Source: Caprimulgus europaeus | Taxonomy: Eukaryota > Chordata > Aves > Caprimulgiformes > Caprimulgidae | NCBI GenBank assembly: GCA_907165065.1 | Contig: OU015539.1 | Coordinates: 13,794,816-13,858,815, forward strand | DNA: 64,000 nucleotides | Direction of reading: 5' to 3' | Part shown: piece by piece, positions 14,942 to 64,000 of the stretch | Position numbering within the stretch: position 1 is the first letter of the stretch | Layout: the number at the start of each line of letters is the position of its first letter | Notes under the pieces: model-generated | The model's input: the letters and a program-made list of their open reading frames with translations, nothing else | The model's database searches: none | What the model was told of the DNA's origin: nothing | Program-made: the position numbers and the translations under genes

Positions 14942-14948
14942 AGGTAAG
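14942..14948 (+). other. Consensus splice donor just before the array
   Basis: CACCCAG/GTAAGT is a near-perfect 5' splice site 160 bp before the array; the last exon base would be 14942. If real, the array would be the bulk of an intron of a + strand transcript ending at the poly(A) signal at 21700. No matching upstream acceptor is clear. Confidence 0.25.
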
Positions 14949-15103
14949 TCCCAAACCAGCACCATGTGCCACACACCACCCACAGCTCCTGCACCTGTGC
15001 AGCACACGACACAGCACTGACACTGCAGCACAGGACACATCATCAGACACCGCGTGCAGCATCTGCCACACACACCGCACGGGTGGCTCTGCGCACACCT
15101 GAC

Positions 15104-18100
15104 ACCACACACACTCACACATTCACACTCTCACTTATACACACCCTCTCTCTCTCACACACACACGCACTCACACTGTCATACACATTCACACACACAG
15201 TCTCACTCCTACACACTCACACACACTCGCACACACTTGTGCACACATTCTCCTACACGCACTCACATTCATACACTCACGCTCATTCACACACAGGCAC
15301 TCACACATGCACTTTCACACACACTCATACACATTCACACACACATATGCACACACACATGCACTCCCACGCTCAAGCCCTCTCACACATTCACACACAC
15401 TCATGCACTCGCAAGCTCACACTTACACACAAATGCACTCACACTCACACTTTCATACACATTCACACATGCATTCACGCTTATGCACTCACGCACATGA
15501 ACACACACTCCCACACTCACTCGCACTCATACTTGCACTCACTCATGCACACTCTCAAGACACATTCACACACACTCAAACACATGCTCACTCATAACTC
15601 GCACTCATACGCACTCTCACATGCACTCGCACTCATACACGTTCACACACATTCGCACACTATCATACACACACTCATACACATTCACAGTCTCAAATGT
15701 ACTCACACACAAACGCACACAAACACACACTCCCACACTCATACTAACACACACACTCATACACATTCACACTCACACTCTTGTACGCACTCATACACAG
15801 CTACACACACACATGCACGCACACACTCATGCATTCACACTCACACACTCGTACTCACGCACTCACACACGTGAACACACACTCCCATGCTGACATGCAC
15901 TCATACGCACTCTCAAATGCACAGGCTCATGCACATGTACACTCGCACTCACACACACACTTTCACTCACACTAACGTACTCACACACACGCATCCACAC
16001 ACTCATGCACATGAACAAACACTCCCACACTCACATTCACTCATGCTCACACACACTTGTACGAACTCTCTCTCATACTCACAGACATGCACACTCACGC
16101 ACCCACTCACGCTCTGTCATACTCTCTCACACTCACTCCTGCACATTCATACAGACACTTGCACCCACACTCATACACATTCACACACACACTTTCATTC
16201 ACACACACGAACACTCCCACTTACTCGCACACTCACTCATGCACACTCATACACATTCACACATACACTCAAAACACACACACGCACTCACTCATACACA
16301 CACTTTCAAAGGCACATGCACTCGCTTACACACACACATTCTCACTCATACACATGCACACACTCCCACACTCACTCTCACTCACACACCTCATACACTC
16401 GTGCACTCTCACTCTCAAATGCACTCACACTCACCCACACTCATTCTCTTGTGCACACACACACACACTCGCACGCAGTCTTATGCACACACTCATACAC
16501 ACTCACACTCAGACACACTCATACACACATACTCACACAGGCACTTTCTCACACTCATTCTCATGCACATGAACACACTCACCTGCACTCACACTCATGC
16601 ACATGAACACGCCCACATTCACACGCACTCACACCCACTCTCATACCCACACACACACTCACACTCCCTCTCCCATGCACACACAAACTTGCACACACTC
16701 TCTCACATGCAGTCATACTCACTTATACACACTCACGCACTCACTCATACACATTCACTCACACTCAGACGCACACTCGCACTCATGCACTCTCACGCAC
16801 ATGAACACATACTCGCACTCATGCATGCAATCCTACTCATACATTCACACTCATACACATTCACACATGCTCTCATGCACACAAACACACACTCCCACTC
16901 ATACTAACACACTCATACATTCACACACACTTGTACACATGCACTCGCACTCACTCATACACAGCTACACATTCACATGCACTCACTCATACACATTCAC
17001 ACTCACACTCGTACTCACGTACTCATGCACGAGAACACACACTCCCATGCTGACACACACTCACACACACACTTGCACACACTCATGCACTCGCATGCAG
17101 TCATACTCACTCATACTCACTCACGCACTCAACCACACACTCATACTCACGCGTTCACACGCTCTCACGCACATGTACACTCGCAGTCACACTCATATAC
17201 ACACGCATCCACACTCTCACTCACACGAACACACCCTCCCACACTCACATTCACTCACGCTCACTCACACTTGTACACACACTCTCACTCACATGGGAAC
17301 TCTCACTCATACTCACAGACACACACACTCACACACCCAGTCATATTCTCTCTCACTCCTGCACATTCACACACACTCAAAACACACACTCACTCTTATA
17401 TGCACTCACTCATACACACACTCTCAAAGGCACATGCACTCTTACACACACACATTCTCACTCATACACACGCACATGAACACGCACTCACACTCTCGAA
17501 TGCACTCACACTCATTCTCTTGTGCACACACACGCTCACTCGCACACAGTCGTACAAACACACACTCACTCATACACGTTCACTCACAAAGACACACACA
17601 TACACAGGCACTTTCTCACACTCACACTCATGCACTCAAACTCACTCTCATGCACATGAACACACTCACTTGCACTCACACTTATACACACACACGCACT
17701 TGCCCCCACACTCTCTCATACACATTCTCACACACTCACCTGCACTCACACGCCCACATTCACACACGCTCACACTCAAACTCTCATACTAGCACACACG
17801 CACTCACACCCACACACTCACACACAAGAACCCTCTCGCATGCTCCCAGTCTCACACTCACACACATGCACTCACACTCACTCATACACACGCACGCACA
17901 CACATACTCCCACACGCACACTAACACACTCACTCACTCAAACACTCTTGTGCGCACGTGCACACACACGCATTCGCATTCACTCACTCACACACAGCTA
18001 CACACACACATGCACTCACACGCACATGCACGCACACTCATATGCACTCACACTCGTACTCACGTACATGAACACACACTGCCATGCTGACACACACTCA

Positions 18101-21100
18101 TACACACACTCTCAAATGCACTCACACTTGCACACACTCATGCACACACATGCACTCGCATGCAGTCATACTCACTCATACACACTCGCTCACGCACTTA
18201 ACCACACTCATACTCACGCACTCACACGCTCTCACGCACATGTACACTCGCAGTCACACTCATACATACACGCATCCACACACAAATGCTCCAACTCACG
18301 CTCACACACACTCAAACGCACTCTCACACACACACGCATCCACACTCACACAAACCCTGCCACGCTCACGCACACTCACACTAACGCACTCACACACACA
18401 CACAAATCCACACACTCATGCACACGAACAAACACTCCCACACTCACATTCACTCACGCTCACACACACTTGTACACACACTCACTCACATGAGAACTCT
18501 CATACTCGCAGACACGCACACTCACGCACCCACTCACGCCGTCATACTCACACTCACTCACACACTCATATACACACTTGCACCCACACTCATACGCATT
18601 CACACACACTTGCACTCACACACATGAACACTCCCACTTACTCGCGCTCACTCACACACTCACTCTCATGCAATCACACTCACTCATACACATTCACACA
18701 CACACACACGCACTCACTCATACACACACTCTCAAAGGCACACACACTTACACACACGCATTCTCATACACACGCACATGAACACTCCCACACTCACTCT
18801 CACACCTCATGCACCCACACTCATTCTCTTGTGCACACACATGCTCACTCGCACGCAGTCTCACACACATATTCACTCACACTCAGACACACTCATACTC
18901 ACATACATACTCACACAGGCACTTTCTCACACTCAAACACTCTCTCATGCACATGAACACACTTGCACTCACAATTGCCCCCACACTCTCTCATACACAT
19001 TCTCACACACACTCACATGCACTCACACTCACGAACACGCCCATATTCACATGCACTCACGCTCAAACTCTCATACTAGCACACACGCACTCACGCACTC
19101 ACACCCACAAACCCACTCACATGCTCCCACTGTCACACTCACACTCCCTCTCCCATGCACACAAACTTGCACACACTCACTCTCACATGCAGTCATACTC
19201 ACTTATACACACTCACGCACTCATACACATTCACTCACAAACGCACACTCGCACTTATGCACTCCTACTCATACATTCACACTCATACACACTCACACTC
19301 ATACACTCTCATGCACATGAACACGCACTCACACTCATACACATTCACCCATACATTCTCACTCACGCACTCACTCATGCACACTCACACATACTCACTC
19401 TCACTTCACACTCGCACACAGGCACGCACATGCACTCACACTCGTGCAAACACTCACACGCACTCATACACTCTCGCACACACTCGAACGCTCACTCATA
19501 CTCGCACTCACACATGCACTCACACTCGTGCACAGTCACTGTCATATGCACTCATACTCACACTCAAATGCACGCAGAGTGCCACTCACACTGTCTCAGT
19601 CACACACGCACTCACACTCATTCTCTCACATGCAAACTCATACATTCACACACTCACGCATACATTCACACTCATGTTCGTGCACTCTCATACACGTTCA
19701 CACACACACACACACACACTCATGCACTCACACTATCATACGCACTCACACGCAAACTCACACGCTCATTCACTCTCAAATGCACTACGCACACTTGCAC
19801 TCCCACTCGCACTCATACGCACACTCATACACACACTCACACTCTCAAATTAACTCGCGCACTCCCACACTCCCTCGCACTTTCTCTCACACTGGCGCAC
19901 ACTCTCATATTTGCACTCACACACATGCACTCTCCCATTCACACACTCCTACTCACACATACACACTCATGCACTCAGTCGCACTCTCTCATACTCACAC
20001 GCACCCACTCCCACTCATGCACTCACACTCTCACCTGCACTCACACACTCACACTCAGTCACTATCATACACACTCACACACACACTCAAATGCACGCAC
20101 GCACTCATACTCACAGTTATACTCATGCATGCACACACTCACTCATACACCGGCACTCACACTCATTCATACACACAATATCACGCAGTCATACTCACTC
20201 TCAAATGCACTCCCACACTCGCACTCACACTCACGCACTCACTCTCACCCAGTCTCATGCAAACTCACACTCATACGCACTCACACTCACGCTCAATTTC
20301 AAATGCACACACCCACACTCCCACTCTCTCCCACTTATACCCTCACTCTCACATTCACTTGCACACACCCACCCACTCCCACACGCACTCATACACACCC
20401 CCACGCTCACACTCACACTGAGTCACTATCATACGCACTCACTCACACACATTCACTCTCATGCACTCACACACACTCCCTCACATGCGCACACACACTT
20501 CCACTCACTCGCACTCTCACACATGCACTCATGCATCCAGTCATACTCTTATACACTCACGCACTCTCACACACATGAACACACTCCCACTCACTTGCAC
20601 TCCCTCACACACACACTCACTCACATTCACACTCCTATGCACTCATACTCTCACTCACTCTCATACACATTCACACACTCACGCACAGTCACACTCCCAC
20701 GGATTCATACACGCACAGTCACACTCCCATACACGTACACTCACACATACTGTCATACTCATGCACTCTCAAATGCACACACACTCACACATACACTCAC
20801 ACTCTCGCACGCACTCGTACTCACTCATACACACTTATGCACTCACACTCTCTCATTCACACATGTACACGCTCACTCTCAAATGCTCTCACACGCACAC
20901 TCACGCATTCACGCACTCATACGCAGTCACACACACTCATGCACTCTCACACTCATACTCACCCTCACGCTCTCACACTCACGCACCCACTCTCACATGC
21001 ACTCATTCACACACTCACTCACACACATTCACACTCTCATTCACTTTCAAATGCACTCACTCGTACTCACACATACAGACTCATGCACTCACTCATACTT

Positions 21101-21625
21101 ACGCACTCCCGCACACTCCCACATTTCCACACTCACTCATAAACACACTCATGCACTCACACACGCACTCACACTTAGTCACACACAAACTCACTCGCAC
21201 TCATATGCACTCATATTCACTCTCAAATGCACTCGTATTCACAGACTCACGCGCTTACATACATGGACTCAGCTGCACTCACACGCACCCACTCTCAAAT
21301 GCACTCACTCGTGCATACTCACACACTCACTCACTTGTACTCATACTCACTCTCATACTTGCACACACACACCCACTCTCACATGCACTCATACTCACTC
21401 ACACACCCTCACACACTTACTCTTCACACTCATGCACACATACATGCACTCACTCATACGCATTCACTCTCAAATGCACTCACACTCACGCAGTTTCATA
21501 CACATTCACACTCAAATACACTCCATACTCACGCACTTGCACTCATGCTCTCACACTCACACATGCACATTCAAACACACACTCTCACACTCAGTCACTC
21601 ACTATCTCACACAGTCACACCCCCC
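15104..21625. repeat. 6.5-kb CA/CTCA/CATA array with kilobase-scale higher-order repeats
   Basis: About 6.5 kb consist almost only of short words such as CACA, CTCA, CATA and GCAC, with very few G residues on the + strand. Longer blocks recur in the same order. The word CATGCTGAC is at 15886, 17046 and 18083; TCATTCTCTT at 16441, 17512 and 18821; AAAGGCACA at 16308, 17426 and 18734. The spacing is 1.04-1.31 kb, showing at least three diverged copies of a long unit. From about 19.3 kb a second subfamily with CTCTCAAATGCACTC words takes over to the end. The array gives open frames up to 597 codons in several frames at once, encoding His-Thr-Ser strings, because the composition excludes stop codons. 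Confidence 0.95.
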
Positions 21626-21699
21626 CCGCCATGACTCACCCTTGCCTTTGGCTGCTGTGTCCGTGTCCGTGCCGGAGCTGCTGTGCGGCAGTGCCGCTC

Positions 21700-21705
21700 A
21701 ATAAA
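21700..21705 (+). terminator. Poly(A) signal, + strand
   Basis: AATAAA lies 75 bp after the end of the array in a non-repetitive GC-rich segment. A CA-rich cleavage region follows, then the T-rich stretch near 21738-21747, as expected of a real 3' end. It also overlaps the stop of an open frame coming out of the array. It probably marks the 3' end of a + strand transcript of unknown identity. Confidence 0.4.
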
Positions 21706-21740
21706 CCCTTGCACCAAACACACCAGCCTTTGAGACGTTT

Positions 21741-21746
21741 TTTATT
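21741..21746 (-). terminator. Poly(A) signal, - strand (convergent)
   Basis: TTTATT on the + strand reads AATAAA on the minus strand, 36 bp beyond the + strand signal. The two would give overlapping convergent 3' ends. A single hexamer in a T-rich stretch may be chance. Confidence 0.2.
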
Positions 21747-22162
21747 TCACGATTCTCTTGTTGCCCCTTGACTCACATCAGACACTACCACCAGCCTCCA
21801 GGCAGGGCTGCAGGACCCCGCTCCCCCCCAGCATCCCTGTTTGAGAGCAAGCTGAAAGATCCCCGGCAGCGTTACACTTTGCTTACCTAGAGCGAATTTC
21901 AGCAACAAGTGTTCTCCAGGAGTTTGAAGAGAAGATGCCCCTGTGCCAGTTCACGCTTCCCCAGCGCAGGAGCACTGCTGTCACATACCAGGCACGCCCG
22001 TCACCCCTGCCCTGGCTGGCTGGGCTGTATTGCATATGCCAAGAGAAGCAGTTTCCCCATGAGCTAGCACATTAGCCCTTTGTAGGATCAGCTGATGGGT
22101 TCCTCACTCATTGTCCTGTGCAGGTGAATGGTCCCTTGGTGTGGGGTTTTAAACATTATTTC

Positions 22163-50101: not shown

Positions 50102-50365
50102 CCATAGAATCACAGAATGTTTTGGGTTGAAGGGACCTTTTTCAAGGCCATCTAGTCCAACCCCTCTGCAGTGAGCAGGGACATCTTCAACTACAGCAGG
50201 TTGCTCAGAGCCCCGTCCAGCCTGACCCTGAATGCTTCCAGGGATGGGATATCTACCACCTCTCACAGTAACCTATGCCACTGTTTCACCAATCTCATTT
50301 TAAAAAACATCTTCCTTACACCTAGTCTGAATCCACCCTCTTTCAGTTTGATGCTAATGCCAACA
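50102..50365 (-). mobile_element. CR1 LINE 3' fragment
   Basis: It starts CCATAGAATCACAGAATG and continues with CATCTAGTCCAACCCCTCTGC and TTGCTCAGAGCCCCGTCCAGC, the reverse complement of the CR1 3' end. About 260 bp, 5'-truncated, antisense. Confidence 0.95.
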
Positions 50366-57761: not shown

Positions 57762-57822
57762 GGGGGGGGCTGGACTAGATGACATATGAAGGTCCCTTCC
57801 AACCCAATACATTCTATGATAC
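57762..57822 (+). mobile_element. CR1 LINE 3' end, very short
   Basis: The words GGCTGGACTAGATGACAT, GGTCCCTTCCAACCC and ATTCTATGATAC are the terminal 60 bp of CR1 in sense orientation. A run of nine G precedes it. Confidence 0.88.
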
Positions 57823-58465: not shown

Positions 58466-59446
58466 TTGTTCTTCCTTTTCTGAGGCACTCAAAGGATTAT
58501 TCTGGAATAATAAAACACTAGCAGGTATTTTAATGGCTAAAACCAGGACAGTTAGAATGGACAGAACTAAAAGGTAACTGTTGGAAGTACATCTTCCCAG
58601 GAAAAGTCCTTAGGGCCCCAGCAAAACAGAAGACTCTTATTGAGAACTTCAGAACAAGGTTGTTCAACTGACTTGCCAATGAATATATTGAAACTTATGA
58701 ACTTAGTAACTTACTTCAACCTTGCAAACATTACAGGTGTACTTTACACGCATGCAGTTTTACTCAAATGCTTAAAATAAGCATATCCTTAAATGTGTTT
58801 TTTAATGGGAACTTAGTACACTGTTTTACATTTTATTTGCTTAAACTTCTAATTTAACTTAACTACAGCATTAAAAAAACAGCAGAAAATGTACAACTAC
58901 AGTAAACAGAGAGCTGAATAGCGTAAGAGATGGAGGCACCAAACTAAAAGTACGTTAAGTTTCTCATGAGCCATTTTCTCACACCTTTACGTGACTGATC
59001 TCAAATGATGTGTGCTCTGCTCTAGGTAGTCAGATCCAGCTTTAATTAAAATGTGCAACAGAATAATGCTGTTAGCATCCTGAGTTCATGATGTCTGAGT
59101 GGAGTGATCTGCTAGAAAAATATTCCACAGAATGGCATGTAAAGTTAAGCTTACTAAAGAGAAAGTCACTGAACAGAAAACTATCAAATTCAAAGGGCGT
59201 TGAGATTACTCATACTTCCACTCCACTGGCTTGAATCTGTAAAAGGTAAATAAATGCTCAAGCATTAACACTCAGAGCTGCATCCATACAGTAAAGCATT
59301 TGAAAAAGTCAGAAACCTGTATTTTGAAGTTACTGTACAAACTGAGGATTAGTTACTAAAATACTGAAGGTGATTTTATCTGCCTAGACAGGGCCAGTTC
59401 CACACAAACATTTTTAGGCCTAAATCAAAAAAGATAAAGAATTTAC

Positions 59447-59560
59447 CCTGTGGCCAGGACATACATTGATATAATGTTGTTTGCAGGATTTTTTCACAGA
59501 TGGCTCGGTCCCTCAAATAAGCTGTACAGATGCCGAGTCCCTGGCCGGCCCTTCCTGCCT
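59447..59560 (-). other. Candidate first exon of a divergent minus-strand transcript
   Basis: Read on the minus strand, an open segment leaves the CpG island and reaches a donor-like CCACAGG/GTAAAT at 59447-59446. Its last codons read like ordinary protein (ending in Cys-Met-Ser-Trp-Pro-Gln), but the segment may equally be untranslated. The upstream end is not defined. It would be the start of a gene or long non-coding RNA transcribed away from ferritoid. Confidence 0.25.
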
Positions 59561-59902
59561 GGCACAGGGGACACGCACCGGGGCTGAGGGCCGAGGTGCC
59601 GCCCGGCTCCGTGGGCTGCAGTGTACTATACCGGCCCGGCCCCCACCGACAGGCGCTACTCGCCGCGCACAACGGGCTGCGGGCGAGACCGACGGCCGAG
59701 AGGGCCGAGGCTCCCCGGGCACAGGGCGCGCCTGCCCACGGGCACGCACGAAATGGCGGCGCCCCCCCCCGCCCCGGCGAGGGCAGGCGGCCGGCCCCAC
59801 GCACCTCCCGCCGGCGCGGGCCGGGACGGGGGCGGGGAGGAAGGCGGGGAGGGGCCGGCCCGGCGCCGCCGAGTGCGGCAAGGTGTGTCCCAGGTGCCCG
59901 GG

Positions 59903-59910
59903 CTATATCA
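59903..59910 (+). promoter_or_regulatory. TATA-like element upstream of ferritoid
   Basis: CTATATCA lies 31 bp before the first ATG. If used, transcription would start close to 59935-59940, leaving almost no 5' leader before the first ATG and favouring the in-frame ATG at 59956. It is a single short motif and could be chance. Confidence 0.3.
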
Positions 59911-59940
59911 GGCGGCGCGGCGGAGCGGCGCGGCTGCCCC

Positions 59941-60123
59941 ATGGCGGCGCCCGCCATGGCCGAGCCGCGCTCCAAGCGGCCCCGCGTCACGCTGCCCGCC
60001 TGCCCGGCGCACCGCCCGCTGCCCGGCAGTCGCGTGCGGCAGAGCTTCCCGCCCGCCGTGGAGGAAGGCCTCTGCGGTGTCACCGGCGCCCTGCTGGAGC
60101 TCGCCTACTGCCTGCAGGCGCTG
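59941..60123 (+). CDS. Ferritoid (nuclear ferritin-transport protein, ferritin-H-like), coding exon 1
   Basis: Exon 1 encodes residues 1-61 and ends in phase 0 at a GTAAGC donor. Residues 32-61 align without gaps with ferritin H from its VRQ motif to the end of its exon 1 (first half of helix A). Residues 1-31 are mostly an extension that ferritin H lacks; it is rich in Pro, Ala and Arg and contains S11-K-R-P-R-V16, which fits the monopartite nuclear signal K-[KR]-x-[KR]. Ferritoid of chicken corneal epithelium is known to have an SV40-type nuclear signal plus a ferritin-like domain, to bind ferritin and to bring it into the nucleus; this gene fits that description. In the ungapped alignment ferroxidase residues E27 and Y34 are L51 and L58. 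E53 could stand in for E27 only with a two-residue gap. I start at the first ATG, but the in-frame ATG at 59956 (residue 6) has the better Kozak context (GCCATGG). The frame stays open upstream to about 59530, so no stop fixes the start. Exon structure is near certain; the name is an inference from features. Confidence 0.85.
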
Positions 60124-62445
60124 GTAAGCCGGCGGGCCGGGGCCGGGCGGGCAGGCCCCGGGTTGCGGCCGGGGGCGCAGCGGGGAGCTCCACTCTCCCT
60201 GCCCGGGCAGCCGCCGGGCACCGGGCGGTGGGGTAAGGAGGTACCCGGGGGCCGGGGCAGGTCCCGCCGGCGCTGTCGGGGGTTCATGACCGTGTCTTAG
60301 TCGGGCAGGGTCAGAAGAGTGGCGCCTGCCCCGTTACTTGCCCCGGCGGGACCGGGGGCCTCTCTTGGACAGCTCGCGTTCAGAGCCTCCGGCGGCTCCG
60401 GGGCCGCGCTGCCGCCGCTGCACTTACCCCGAGGTGGCTGCTGACATGGCTGGAAAAACAACGAGGAACGTCTGGAACAAGCAGGGGGTGAAGCAGGCAC
60501 TGGTGTGGTTTGGGTAGTTCACAGAGTTACACCTGTGGAAAGAGGGATAGGGAACACTAAGATTTGGAGTGGAACTCGGGTGTTTTGTTTCCCCAAACTT
60601 GATAGGTAAAATAGCTGTGGGTGCTTAACTGATGAAGTAAGTTTATGAACATCATTCTTGGCTTAGGGTTTTTTGCTCCACAGGTAGGAACACTGGATGT
60701 GGATTTTAAGTTATCTTTGATACTGTGTAACATGCATGCTAAAATTGTGTCTGGCTACCTACCAGACACTATGGCAAAAACTGAAATGATCAATGCCACC
60801 CCTTCTGATGCCAAGCATCCACTGAGAAGCAACACAAACTATATTCAATATATCCCCAAGATCCTTTGATCAAGCTTTGTGTCAAGTGTTAGTCCAAGAA
60901 AGATTTAAGTATGCAGTAAAACCTCTACTAAGTGTGAAGATTAAAATGATAGTAGTGATTGGTAGCTGGGCTGGAGGGAGAAAGCTGAATTAGAAATTGA
61001 TGGTGGATAAATTAAACCTAGAAATGTGTACCTCGTAGTTAATGACGGACAGAAAACATTTACCTTAACAGTTATCAGATGTGGCAACGTGCTCTACTTG
61101 AAGTCACATAGCACACTTGCACTGAGGAACTGAATCTTGACTGTTCTGTCAACAAAAACATGAATGAATGACTTCAGGAAAAGGATTATGCAATTATTGC
61201 AATAAATGTTCTTAATAAAACATTCCAGTACATACTTTCTCTTCAATGGTTTATGGTCACACATCTGTATGTGTCACAGGTTTGGGGTATCCCAGATGGC
61301 CATAAAAATAAGAGAAAAACATTAACTTTTATTGTGTATATAACTCTTCTGCATTTTTCTCTAAACAGAGCAACAGAGATGAAACACACATATTTAATAT
61401 TTAAGATTTCATATTAAAGCAGAGAAGACAATAAGCAGAAAAACTTATGAAATGCATGAATTTGTTCTAAACAGACTGATATGCAGTACTGCAATCCAGA
61501 CTGTGTGTGAGAGACAAAAGCTGTGCTGTACTGCATATATATGTTTAGGGAACCAGCAGATCAAGGCACTGTAGCTCCCACAATCCGGTTCAATTTGGTC
61601 CTTGGCATATTCCCAGCTGCTGCCTCTCATTCTCCTCAACACAGGAGCTGTGCACAGCCAGTATTGAAACTAGTACAACCTGGTGGCTCTCCTCTGCTAT
61701 ACCTGTTTCTAATACATTCTTTTTATGGGACAGCAATACCATGAGTAAAATTCTTCTAATGTAAGAGCTGATAGATCTGTTAGCGTAGTTAAATATTGCA
61801 GTGGTTAAGGTTGTTACTTTCCCATATAGAACAGAACAAGGCCTGCAGTGGGTTTAGGGTTTTAACACTTGTGAAGTATTCCTAGGCGTGAGCTACATAC
61901 AATGTTATGTAGCAGTAGTCTTTTTTTTGTGAGTAACATTATGCATCACAAAGCTGATAAACAGATGCAAAGTTGTGCTTGTTCTTTTTGGTATTTGCCA
62001 AATATATTCTCCCACTTTTGAAAGCTAACTTTTCACTGGAATGCTGACCTGAAGGGATAAATTTTATGTTCCCTGTGCTGGGACTGTGTTTAAAAAAAAA
62101 GAAAACCAAACTCAAACAAAAAACGCCACGCACTCTTCCCCCCAACCACTCATACGTAAAATATTCTGAGGATCTGTGACTGCTACGGAGACCATCAGTA
62201 CTGCAGTCACCTTTCCAGTATTAAAGGACAGAAGGAGTTCTAGTAGAACAACAGAAATTTTTTTTAACTTAAGACTGTAACTACTTACTTCATTTACTGC
62301 AGAAATTTGGATTAAGCTCTACAAAGTGATTGTGCTGGTAAAACAGCTTCCACTGGAAGGGCCTCCCAAGTTCTGATAAGGCCATGGTCTGCTGCAAGTG
62401 AGTCCCATCTCCAGCAAACCTTAATCTTGTTTTTTGTATGCTTAG
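60124..62445 (+). other. Ferritoid intron 1
   Basis: A 2322-bp GT-AG intron. The first 300 bp belong to the CpG island; the rest is AT-richer, unique-looking DNA with short A and T runs. I see no further exon or recognisable mobile element. The intron sits at the ferritin H intron 1 position. Confidence 0.85.
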
Positions 62446-62592
62446 GGTGAATATTTTGATCAGTCGCACGTGGCTCTACCAAATGTTTCAAAGTTCTTCT
62501 TACATCAAGCTCTGGAAGAGAGAAAAGCTGCAGAGGCTTTGATGAAGTATCAGCAAGAAAGAGGAGGCCATTACTGTTCTAAAACCATCCAG
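62446..62592 (+). CDS. Ferritoid coding exon 2 (end of helix A, helix B)
   Basis: A 147-nt exon (residues 62-110, phase 0 to phase 0) lies between a TTTTTGTATGCTTAG acceptor and a CAG/GTAGGT donor. Ferritin H exon 2 is also 147 nt with the same phases, so the gene descends from an intron-containing ferritin H gene and is not a processed copy. Conserved ferritin H features include Y64-F-D66, V70-A-L72, F79-L-H-Q82, E85-E-R87, the L93-M-K95 segment and R100-G-G102. Ferroxidase residue E62 is kept (E86), and so is E61 (E85). The metal ligand H65 is A89. Positions 53, 56, 57 and 60, which in light chains carry the nucleation glutamates, are K, L, H and L here, as in a degenerate H chain rather than an L chain. 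Intron 1 before it is 2322 bp. Confidence 0.92.
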
Positions 62593-63905
62593 GTAGGTAG
62601 TAGACAACAAGATTCCAAGCAGCTGCAATCTGCAGTAATTACTCTTAACTTCTTGCATTATACTGTTGGTACTTTCAGATCTCTGCATTCATTCACTGTT
62701 AGGTTTCCAGATAGAATTTCCCTGTCAGATTAGTGTACATGGTTTTGTTCTTGATTGTGATGTCTAGAAACTGTCATCACTGTCAGTCCTAACTCTACAT
62801 GGTGTCTTTCCAGCCCAAAAGAATATGAACAATGGTCCCCTTTTCTTTCACTCAGCTGGAGACTGCTGTTTCAAATGTGTTGTAATCGATTATAAGACTC
62901 TCCTTTGAATGTGCTGAAACAGCCCACTTGTCTCCTTCACACTGAAACTAAATAGAAGCTACTAGCACCAAAAATGGTAAGGAAGGAGGTAGGAGAAACA
63001 TCTGGCTTGGAGCAGTAGTTGATCTATTGGAGCACAACTCAAGATAGACTCTGAACTAGAGATCTGACTTGGGCTTGCATAGGTACAAAGGAATAACTCA
63101 AAGTTATCAGGAAAAAGAACCCACCTCATTTGTTAGAGACCAAGGGGCTGATTCTCCTCTATAAAATCAGTATTCTGTAAATAGTTCATACACAATGCTC
63201 TCTGACCTATCATAGCAGTTGTTAAGCTGTAGAAAGTAAAAATAAAAAGGCTATCCCAAAAAACTTCCTAAATATTCAGTTTGATTCAGGGAAGACCTTA
63301 TAGCAGTACTTAAAGGGGACCTACAGGAGGGATGGGGAGGAACTCTTTATCAGGGAGTCTAGTGATAGGATGAGGGGCAATGGTTTTAAACTGAAAGAGG
63401 GTAGATTTGGATTAGCTATTAGGAAAAAAATACTTTACTGTGAGTGTGATGAGACACTGGAACATGTTGCCCAGAGAAGTTGTGGATGCCCCCTCCTTGG
63501 AAGTATTCAAGACCACCCTGGATGGGGCTTTGAGCAACTTGATCTAGTGGAAAGTGTCCCTGCTGATGGCAGGGGAGTTGGAACTGGATGAGCTTTAAGG
63601 TTCCTTCCAACCCAAATGATTCTTGGGATGCTATGACAGGATTTCCTGCTGTAAGAACGCTCCTCAGGCATAGATGCTGCTATCTAAATCTCTCTTACTT
63701 GAAAAAGTGCTTGGATTCTGCCACTTCTGTATGTTTGCAGCCATCCAACTCTGCAGAAAACAACAGATGCTCCCAAATAGAAGGAGTTATTACAAAATGC
63801 TAGCACATCTTGTTTAGCGTGCTAGGTAAGTTGCAGGAAACCATCAGTGAATACAGTAAGCTGAGCTGTTCTTCTGAATAAATGCAATTCTGTCTTTGTT
63901 TGTAG
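62593..63905 (+). other. Ferritoid intron 2
   Basis: A 1313-bp GT-AG intron at the ferritin H intron 2 position (after the QDIK-equivalent residues 107-110). It contains a sense-oriented CR1 3' end near 63.3-63.64 kb. Apparent open frames in it are CR1 or chance. Confidence 0.85.
63289..63637 (+). mobile_element. CR1 LINE 3' fragment in ferritoid intron 2
   Basis: About 350 bp of CR1 3' end in sense with the gene. It runs from GGGAAGACCTTATAGCAG through CTCTTTATCAGGGAGTCTAG and TGCCCAGAGAAGTTGTGG to GATTCTTGGGATGCTATGAC. The terminal octamer repeats are diverged, so the insertion is old. Confidence 0.95.
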
Positions 63906-64000
63906 AAACCAAACTGTGAGTACGCAGTCTGTCTGATGAAAGCCCTGGAATTAGCAATGGTACAGTGGAAAACTATCATCCGATATTTTGAAGAGCTTTA
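63906..64000 (+). CDS. Ferritoid coding exon 3 (start of helix C), cut by window edge
   Basis: The exon starts after a strong acceptor (TTCTGTCTTTGTTTGTAG) with Lys-Pro-Asn-Cys, matching the Lys-Pro-Asp-Cys that opens ferritin H exon 3. Thirty-one complete codons and two bases are present before the window ends; the ferritin H exon is 126 nt. Aligned to ferritin H, A99, E101, A103, K108, E116 and L117 are kept, while the ferroxidase bridging residue E107 is W131. The rest of helix C, helices D and E, the Q141 position and the stop lie outside the window, so pore and 24-mer assembly residues cannot be judged here. Confidence 0.9.

Follow-up and report, generated by a model that had tools for sequence, protein, structure and literature searches.

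What does a ferritin subunit do once it no longer handles iron? The question is raised by a gene at the end of a 64,000-nucleotide (nt) stretch of the Caprimulgus europaeus genome (the window), which covers C15:13794816-13858815 on the plus strand of a 1.18-Gb source genome; sequence past the window end was read from the same genome. With a probability of about three in four, we take this gene to be the avian ferritoid or its ortholog, a predicted 277-residue subunit of ferritin fold that would no longer handle iron and would have a targeting role. An initial annotation of the window had described it as a ferritin H paralogue (ferritoid) that has lost most of its ferroxidase centre. The features that carry the identification are given below, with ferroxidase positions in H-chain numbering as read from the alignment. 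FTH1 denotes the gene of the same genome throughout, and L004, L005 and L006 are loci taken from the source genome, L004:1721-2224 being C15:13858721-13859224.

59941-60123, plus strand: exon 1, 183 nt (61 codons), coding for the N-terminal extension and helix A
59974-59985, plus strand: KRPR codons (residues 12-15), SV40-like; no other K-[KR]-x-[KR] motif of the nuclear-localisation type occurs in the protein
60091-60093, plus strand: L51, at ferroxidase position E27
60112-60114, plus strand: L58, at ferroxidase position Y34
62446-62592, plus strand: exon 2, 147 nt as in FTH1, coding for helix B, which is conserved better than any other helix (17 of 29 residues identical to FTH1)
62518-62520, plus strand: E86, at ferroxidase position E62, the sole centre residue kept
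62527-62529, plus strand: A89, at ferroxidase position H65
63906-64000, plus strand: window part of exon 3, the start of a fused exon 3+4 (C15:13858721-13859224, L004:1721-2224)
63966-63968, plus strand: W131 (TGG), at ferroxidase position E107

A ferritin frame, probably without iron chemistry

Direct reading of the gene gives three intact exons from 59941, with GT/AG borders wherever these lie inside the window, phase 0 introns and no in-frame stops; coordinates, frame, splice sites and the 147-nt exon 2 are as initially annotated. The ferritin H phases reported with them hold for introns 1 and 2. Intron 3 is absent and exons 3 and 4 are fused into one 504-nt exon, whereas the coding sequence of FTH1, used as a control, is divided among four exons (111, 147, 126 and 165 bases). 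The fused exon runs 409 bases past the window end to a TAA stop at window-coordinate 64407-64409 (L004:2222-2224), and a poly-A signal lies 337 bases 3' of this stop. A check for frame-breaking changes found the frame open across the region homologous to exon 4 of other ferritins, up to the TAA. The full protein comprises 277 residues. Its N-terminus exceeds that of FTH1 by 24 residues, and the ferritin domain is followed at the C-terminal end by a tail of about 73 residues, which was read as a continuous open frame.

The full protein matches the Pfam Ferritin family (PF00210) over residues 51-181 with 53.4 bits against a curated cut-off of 24.5 (E = 3.5e-14), and the window part matches it at E = 1.2e-8; NCBIfam gave nothing above cut-off for the 277 residues. 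Among solved structures, the window part is best matched by a ferritin heavy chain (E = 2e-16), aligned ungapped over residues 30-134, which bears out the ungapped alignment from helix A to early helix C described at the outset. For the full protein, the best PDB chains reach E values of about 1e-26. Helix A is the weakest part of the alignment; its ungapped score was reached by 3 of 20000 shuffles, and the optimal gapped alignment is the ungapped one. The register of this helix is fixed on both sides, by the distance from VRQ to the end of exon 1, which is the same in the bird gene and FTH1, and by the exon-1/exon-2 border common to both. A shifted register that would place E53 at E27 needs compensating gaps, which the best gapped alignment does not introduce, and was rejected. 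A search for relatives in prokaryote genomes gave 47 pattern matches and one relative, in Roseibacillus, with 47% identity over 34 residues of exon 2 (L003 5001-5102); among viral contigs there were 11 pattern matches and no relative.

H positions 27, 34, 62, 65, 107 and 141 read L, L, E, A, W and K in the bird gene, and E, Y, E, H, E and Q in FTH1. The five residues within the window are those initially annotated, and alignment of the full protein adds the change of Q141 to K, in the portion of the fused exon beyond the window; E62 is the single centre residue of six that is kept. The side-chain volume summed over the five centre positions in the window goes from 762 to 788 cubic angstrom. 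Filling of the di-iron pocket by the tryptophan, as proposed initially, is plausible by volume, but a change this small is also seen in 23% of random sets of four substituted sites. W107 as a selected, volume-conserving replacement was rejected: the change is small, yet not unusual among random substituted sites. The light-chain nucleation positions 57, 60, 61 and 64 are occupied by H, L, E and K, so that the nucleation glutamates, first described as absent, are missing at 57, 60 and 64, with E61 present as in H.

Iron entry appears to be affected as well. The three-fold-channel residues D131, E134 and T135 are replaced by S, K and K, beyond the window, whereas FTH1 keeps all channel residues. 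In animal cytosolic ferritins, Asp131 and Glu134 have been called strictly conserved and the route of iron entry; D131N alone abolished rapid Fe2+ uptake by human H ferritin, and a cyanobacterial ferritin manages with one channel carboxylate (PMC13088775; papers given by PMC number are cited here from excerpts). Since both channel carboxylates are gone, the subunit would have lost its entry door as well as its catalytic site. Lying beyond the window, the channel loss, the lack of intron 3 and the C-terminal tail were invisible to the initial annotation.

The N-terminal extension supplies the second part of the identification. A K-[KR]-x-[KR] motif is present in only 1.4% of shuffles of this 29-residue segment. 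In ferritin shells the subunit N-termini face outwards, so the KRPR signal would be exposed. The protein is basic, with an isoelectric point (pI) of 8.79 and a charge of about +7, as against 5.65 and -7.6 for FTH1 and a pI of 5.51 for human L. Ferritoid has been known since 2003, and its two-part design was reportedly described in that year (Millholland 2003). In this design a unique N-terminus with an SV40-type nuclear localisation signal (NLS) is joined to a ferritin-like domain, and the bird gene fits it by motif: KRPR at residues 12-15 precedes a ferritin-like domain in a frame intact to the gene end, and the assignment to ferritoid made initially is retained. As far as its residues tell, the gene is one for an iron-blind, NLS-bearing ferritin subunit.

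The same dead centre, with a nuclear address recognized by motif only, would also suit a nuclear Fe2+ handler that holds iron in the Fe2+ state and hands it on to iron-dependent dioxygenases of the nucleus, for example TET. In mammals, FTHL17 is an H-like subunit that has no ferroxidase activity and is partly nuclear (PMC7760355). For FTHL17C, binding to TET1 and a rise in nuclear Fe2+ have been reported, and because a 2026 study proposes that it supplies Fe2+ to TET1 (PMC13149808), an iron-donor role is the main functional rival to targeting. FTHL17, however, is inactivated by E62K and, in the excerpt, keeps its other centre residues apart from E61D (PMC7760355), whereas the bird protein keeps only E62. 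With the five other centre positions and the channel carboxylates gone, little would be left to bind Fe2+, and we consider such a role improbable.

Constraint and regulation

Over 546 aligned bases, 285 differ between the gene and FTH1 (0.48, 0.43 and 0.65 by codon position), with proportions of nonsynonymous and synonymous differences (pN, pS) of 0.44 and 0.80; the nonsynonymous rate (dN) is 0.67 and the synonymous rate (dS) is saturated, hence no ratio is given. Such a dN, the 33% identity to FTH1 and the many lost functional residues are what a decaying pseudogene might present, but pS exceeds pN, and the three exons retain canonical borders. When neutral change was simulated on 240 nt from exons 2 and 3, 908, 316 and 186 of 5000 runs were still free of stops after 40, 80 and 120 substitutions, respectively, before any indels. 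Because 277 open codons and the splice sites are kept, a long-neutral copy is improbable. The CpG island at the gene start, the poly-A signal, and the ferritin-related gene that gar and coelacanth have in this MyoD-linked position (PMC7530620) point in the same direction, and we regard decay as very unlikely indeed. The remaining features of the gene region are the following.

59501-60500, no strand: CpG island over the promoter, exon 1 and the start of intron 1 (three overlapping 500-base windows, GC 0.74-0.81, CpG observed/expected 0.82-0.91)
59904-59909, plus strand: TATA-like element TATATC, read directly, 37 bases 5' of the first ATG; putative promoter element
63280-63640, no strand: CR1-like interspersed repeat in intron 2; comparing it with the window by blastn showed similar pieces at 50103-50349 and 57764-57815

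An in-frame ATG upstream, at 59530, was rejected as the start, as it has no support, its frame is GC-rich and the TATA-like element lies downstream of it. Neither the window nor L004 gave a hit to the iron-responsive element (IRE; Rfam IRE_I, RF00037), and the same search gave 49.9 bits in FTH1. A low-threshold Rfam scan of 59300-60200 returned one match, to another family and far below its cut-off. The sole CAGTGN-type loop of 59300-59940, at 59619, was rejected as an IRE, with 1 of 5 stem pairs and no bulged C; a human FTH1 IRE gave 5 of 5 pairs and the bulge. Elsewhere in the window, Pfam searches with 9 of its 38 long open reading frames gave no family above cut-off and one weak match (E = 0.17). 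CA/CT-type simple repeats extend over about 7 kb at 14948-21771; the stop-free frames that they produce, which reach 616 residues and abound in His, Thr and Ser, are false.

A probable origin beside MYOD1

From which ferritin lineage does the gene descend? Over 169 ferritin-domain columns, the bird protein is identical to FTH1 at 56 and to human L at 59. Helix B favours FTH1 (17 vs 13 identities) and helix C slightly so (8 vs 7), whereas helices A, D and E favour human L (9 vs 6, 12 vs 9 and 6 vs 3). With the full-length protein, the best light chain in the PDB scores 97.1 bits and the best heavy chain 97.0 (95.3 for the light chain 1gwg, 94.5 for the heavy chain 1fha). In a tree of 12 rows, none dropped, over 176 of 194 columns, the branch of the protein measures 3.8 changes per column and mammalian L is its nearest neighbour, a placement that is weakly supported (62/65). 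In topology tests (approximately unbiased p-values, p-AU), grouping with H was not rejected (0.42); bird FTH1, bullfrog M and bullfrog L gave 0.20, 0.16 and 0.042. Sequence alone thus leaves H versus L descent undecided. Descent from H is not supported, and the term H paralogue is given up for a protein that, aligned in full, is equally like L and H.

The slight lean towards L, by three identities and 0.1 bit, would fit a structural, light-chain-like subunit of the cytosolic shell that replaces FTL, which was not found in the source genome; no third ferritin locus was seen there among the best candidates scored. The absence of three of the four nucleation glutamates tells against such a subunit, as does the loss of the channel carboxylates, which L keeps, and so do the pI of 8.8, against 5.5 for L, and the NLS-type extension. 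We therefore judge this role unlikely. On the origin of the gene, its position says more than its sequence.

The ferritoid-like gene is flanked by NUCB2 on one side and by MYOD1/KCNC1 on the other. On its strand, further downstream, L004:7657-9033 holds the first-exon frame of a MyoD-family gene (Pfam Basic 5.9e-29, HLH 3.8e-15), which we take to be MYOD1, with its last exon in L005; an exon scan gave five candidates, including this last exon and exon 2 of the ferritoid-like gene. KCNC1 lies beyond MYOD1 (C15:13885485, 97% to a query fragment), NUCB2 lies upstream (10 of 10 matches, C15:13.490-13.503 Mb), and TEAD1-like exons are found at C15:9.44-9.50 Mb. Five VWD-domain matches at C15:13676215-13705680, about 90 kb before the window, probably belong to OTOG, in keeping with the gene order beside human MYOD1. 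Between the ferritoid-like gene and MYOD1, two exon-like, stop-free stretches with plausible splice borders were noted on the minus strand (L004 4338-4583 and 4714-4965); Pfam gave no match for either.

By gene order, the NUCB2/OTOG/MYOD1/KCNC1 surroundings are those of human 11p15.1. At human 19q13.33, FTL stands near NUCB1, TEAD2 and KCNC3, the partners of NUCB2, TEAD1 and KCNC1. Human chromosomes 1, 11, 12 and 19 show fourfold paralogy (PMC7530620). None of NUCB1, TEAD2, KCNC3 and FTL (0 of 4) was seen as a further locus in the source genome, in searches that score best candidates only and with other KCNC- and TEAD-like hits assigned as probable. On the same scoring, two ferritin loci were seen, FTH1 and the MYOD1-linked gene. 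A block like human 19q13.33 may be absent from this assembly, possibly through an assembly gap. This fits reports of a 19q13.3 block poorly represented in birds, in a paper which also argues that its genes are hidden rather than lost and whose excerpt does not mention FTL (PMC5608299).

FTH1 is found on the same contig, 11.7 Mb from the MYOD1-linked gene, so an H copy made within the chromosome is conceivable. In gar and coelacanth, however, a ferritin-related gene, zgc:172145, lies between Myf7 and MyoD (PMC7530620). Its place just upstream of MyoD makes a copy of H from the bird era less plausible than an old origin, perhaps linked to FTL. Weighing position more than sequence, we hold an old MYOD1-linked ferritin gene, possibly a duplication sister of FTL, to be the likeliest source. 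More tentatively, and somewhat short of even odds, ferritoid might represent a third ancient jawed-vertebrate ferritin lineage, an FTL sister from the early whole-genome duplications that stayed beside MYOD1 in birds, gar and coelacanth and was lost in mammals. It would then have become an iron-blind, basic adaptor subunit that sets the destination of the cage and throttles its iron uptake.

Proposed role and known ferritins

Each ferritin subunit contributes to one of eight entry channels. Ferritoid guides ferritin into the nuclei of corneal epithelial cells, according to the excerpt of a review (PMC10052036, citing Linsenmayer 2005, Beazley 2008/2009 and Nurminskaya 2009). A ferritoid subunit could act in the bird by co-assembling with H ferritin through the conserved helix B (2-fold) face. 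Its basic extension would then display an importin-binding signal on the cage exterior, and the mixed cage would be taken into the nucleus. Since every subunit takes part in an entry channel, iron flux would probably be lowered in any cage that ferritoid joins. Co-assembly, nuclear import and lowered flux are all put forward here as predictions. The 2-fold interface residues L56, R63 and E67 are all kept (3/3); with all three sites mutated, H ferritin has been found to assemble only once copper is bound (PMC11638945).

Several points weigh against this account. The match to chicken ferritoid, the most likely one, was made through the two-domain design, and ferritin binding and nuclear carriage in Caprimulgus are extrapolated. 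Y39 and N74 of the interface list are changed. The ferritin domain is just 33% identical to that of FTH1, and helix D carries Gly-Pro at 139-140, so that stable co-assembly is not certain. As a signal of selection, the loss of four of five centre sites in the window is no excess over general divergence (71 of 112 sites differ, P = 0.39), and a specific excess was rejected. The initial annotation had proposed that selection kept the fold and dropped iron oxidation; the sequence does support a ferritin fold that lacks a ferroxidase centre, and the centre loss is real, but by itself it is no sign of targeted selection.

In the excerpts on ferritoid, nuclear ferritin and corneal epithelium, bird ferritin paralogues, FTL ohnologues and zgc:172145, we found no statement on the channel loss, the intron loss or a link to the MyoD-side ferritin gene; the primary ferritoid papers lie outside this coverage, and novelty is not claimed. 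It is still an open question how nuclei take in ferritin and how it protects their DNA. A natural subunit without oxidation and entry residues, with key assembly-face residues and an NLS motif, offers a clean test of whether mixing redirects cages and lowers their iron. The MYOD1-linked position gives a handle for finding vertebrate orthologues and for dating the loss of iron chemistry.

Among known systems, chicken ferritoid combines a ferritin-like domain with a unique N-terminus bearing an SV40-type NLS, as the bird gene does. FTH1 (C15:2.168-2.173 Mb, L006) shares with the bird gene the ferritin fold, introns 1 and 2 in the same places and a 147-nt exon 2, but it is divided into four exons, carries an IRE, retains every ferroxidase and channel residue and has a pI of 5.65, with 56 of 169 residues identical. 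Human FTL likewise lacks a ferroxidase centre, is identical at 59 of 169 positions and has the LG-Y---RL pattern in helix E; unlike the bird protein, it keeps E107, the nucleation glutamates and D131/E134, and is without the NLS extension. FTHL17 of mammals is comparable as a ferroxidase-dead H-like subunit that is partly nuclear, the nuclear address of the bird protein being one by motif only, but it is inactivated by E62K, where the bird gene keeps E62, is X-linked and, in the excerpt, has no known nuclear signal (PMC7760355). Finally, zgc:172145 of gar and coelacanth resembles the bird gene, by position only, as a ferritin-related gene just upstream of MyoD, in those species between Myf7 and MyoD (PMC7530620).

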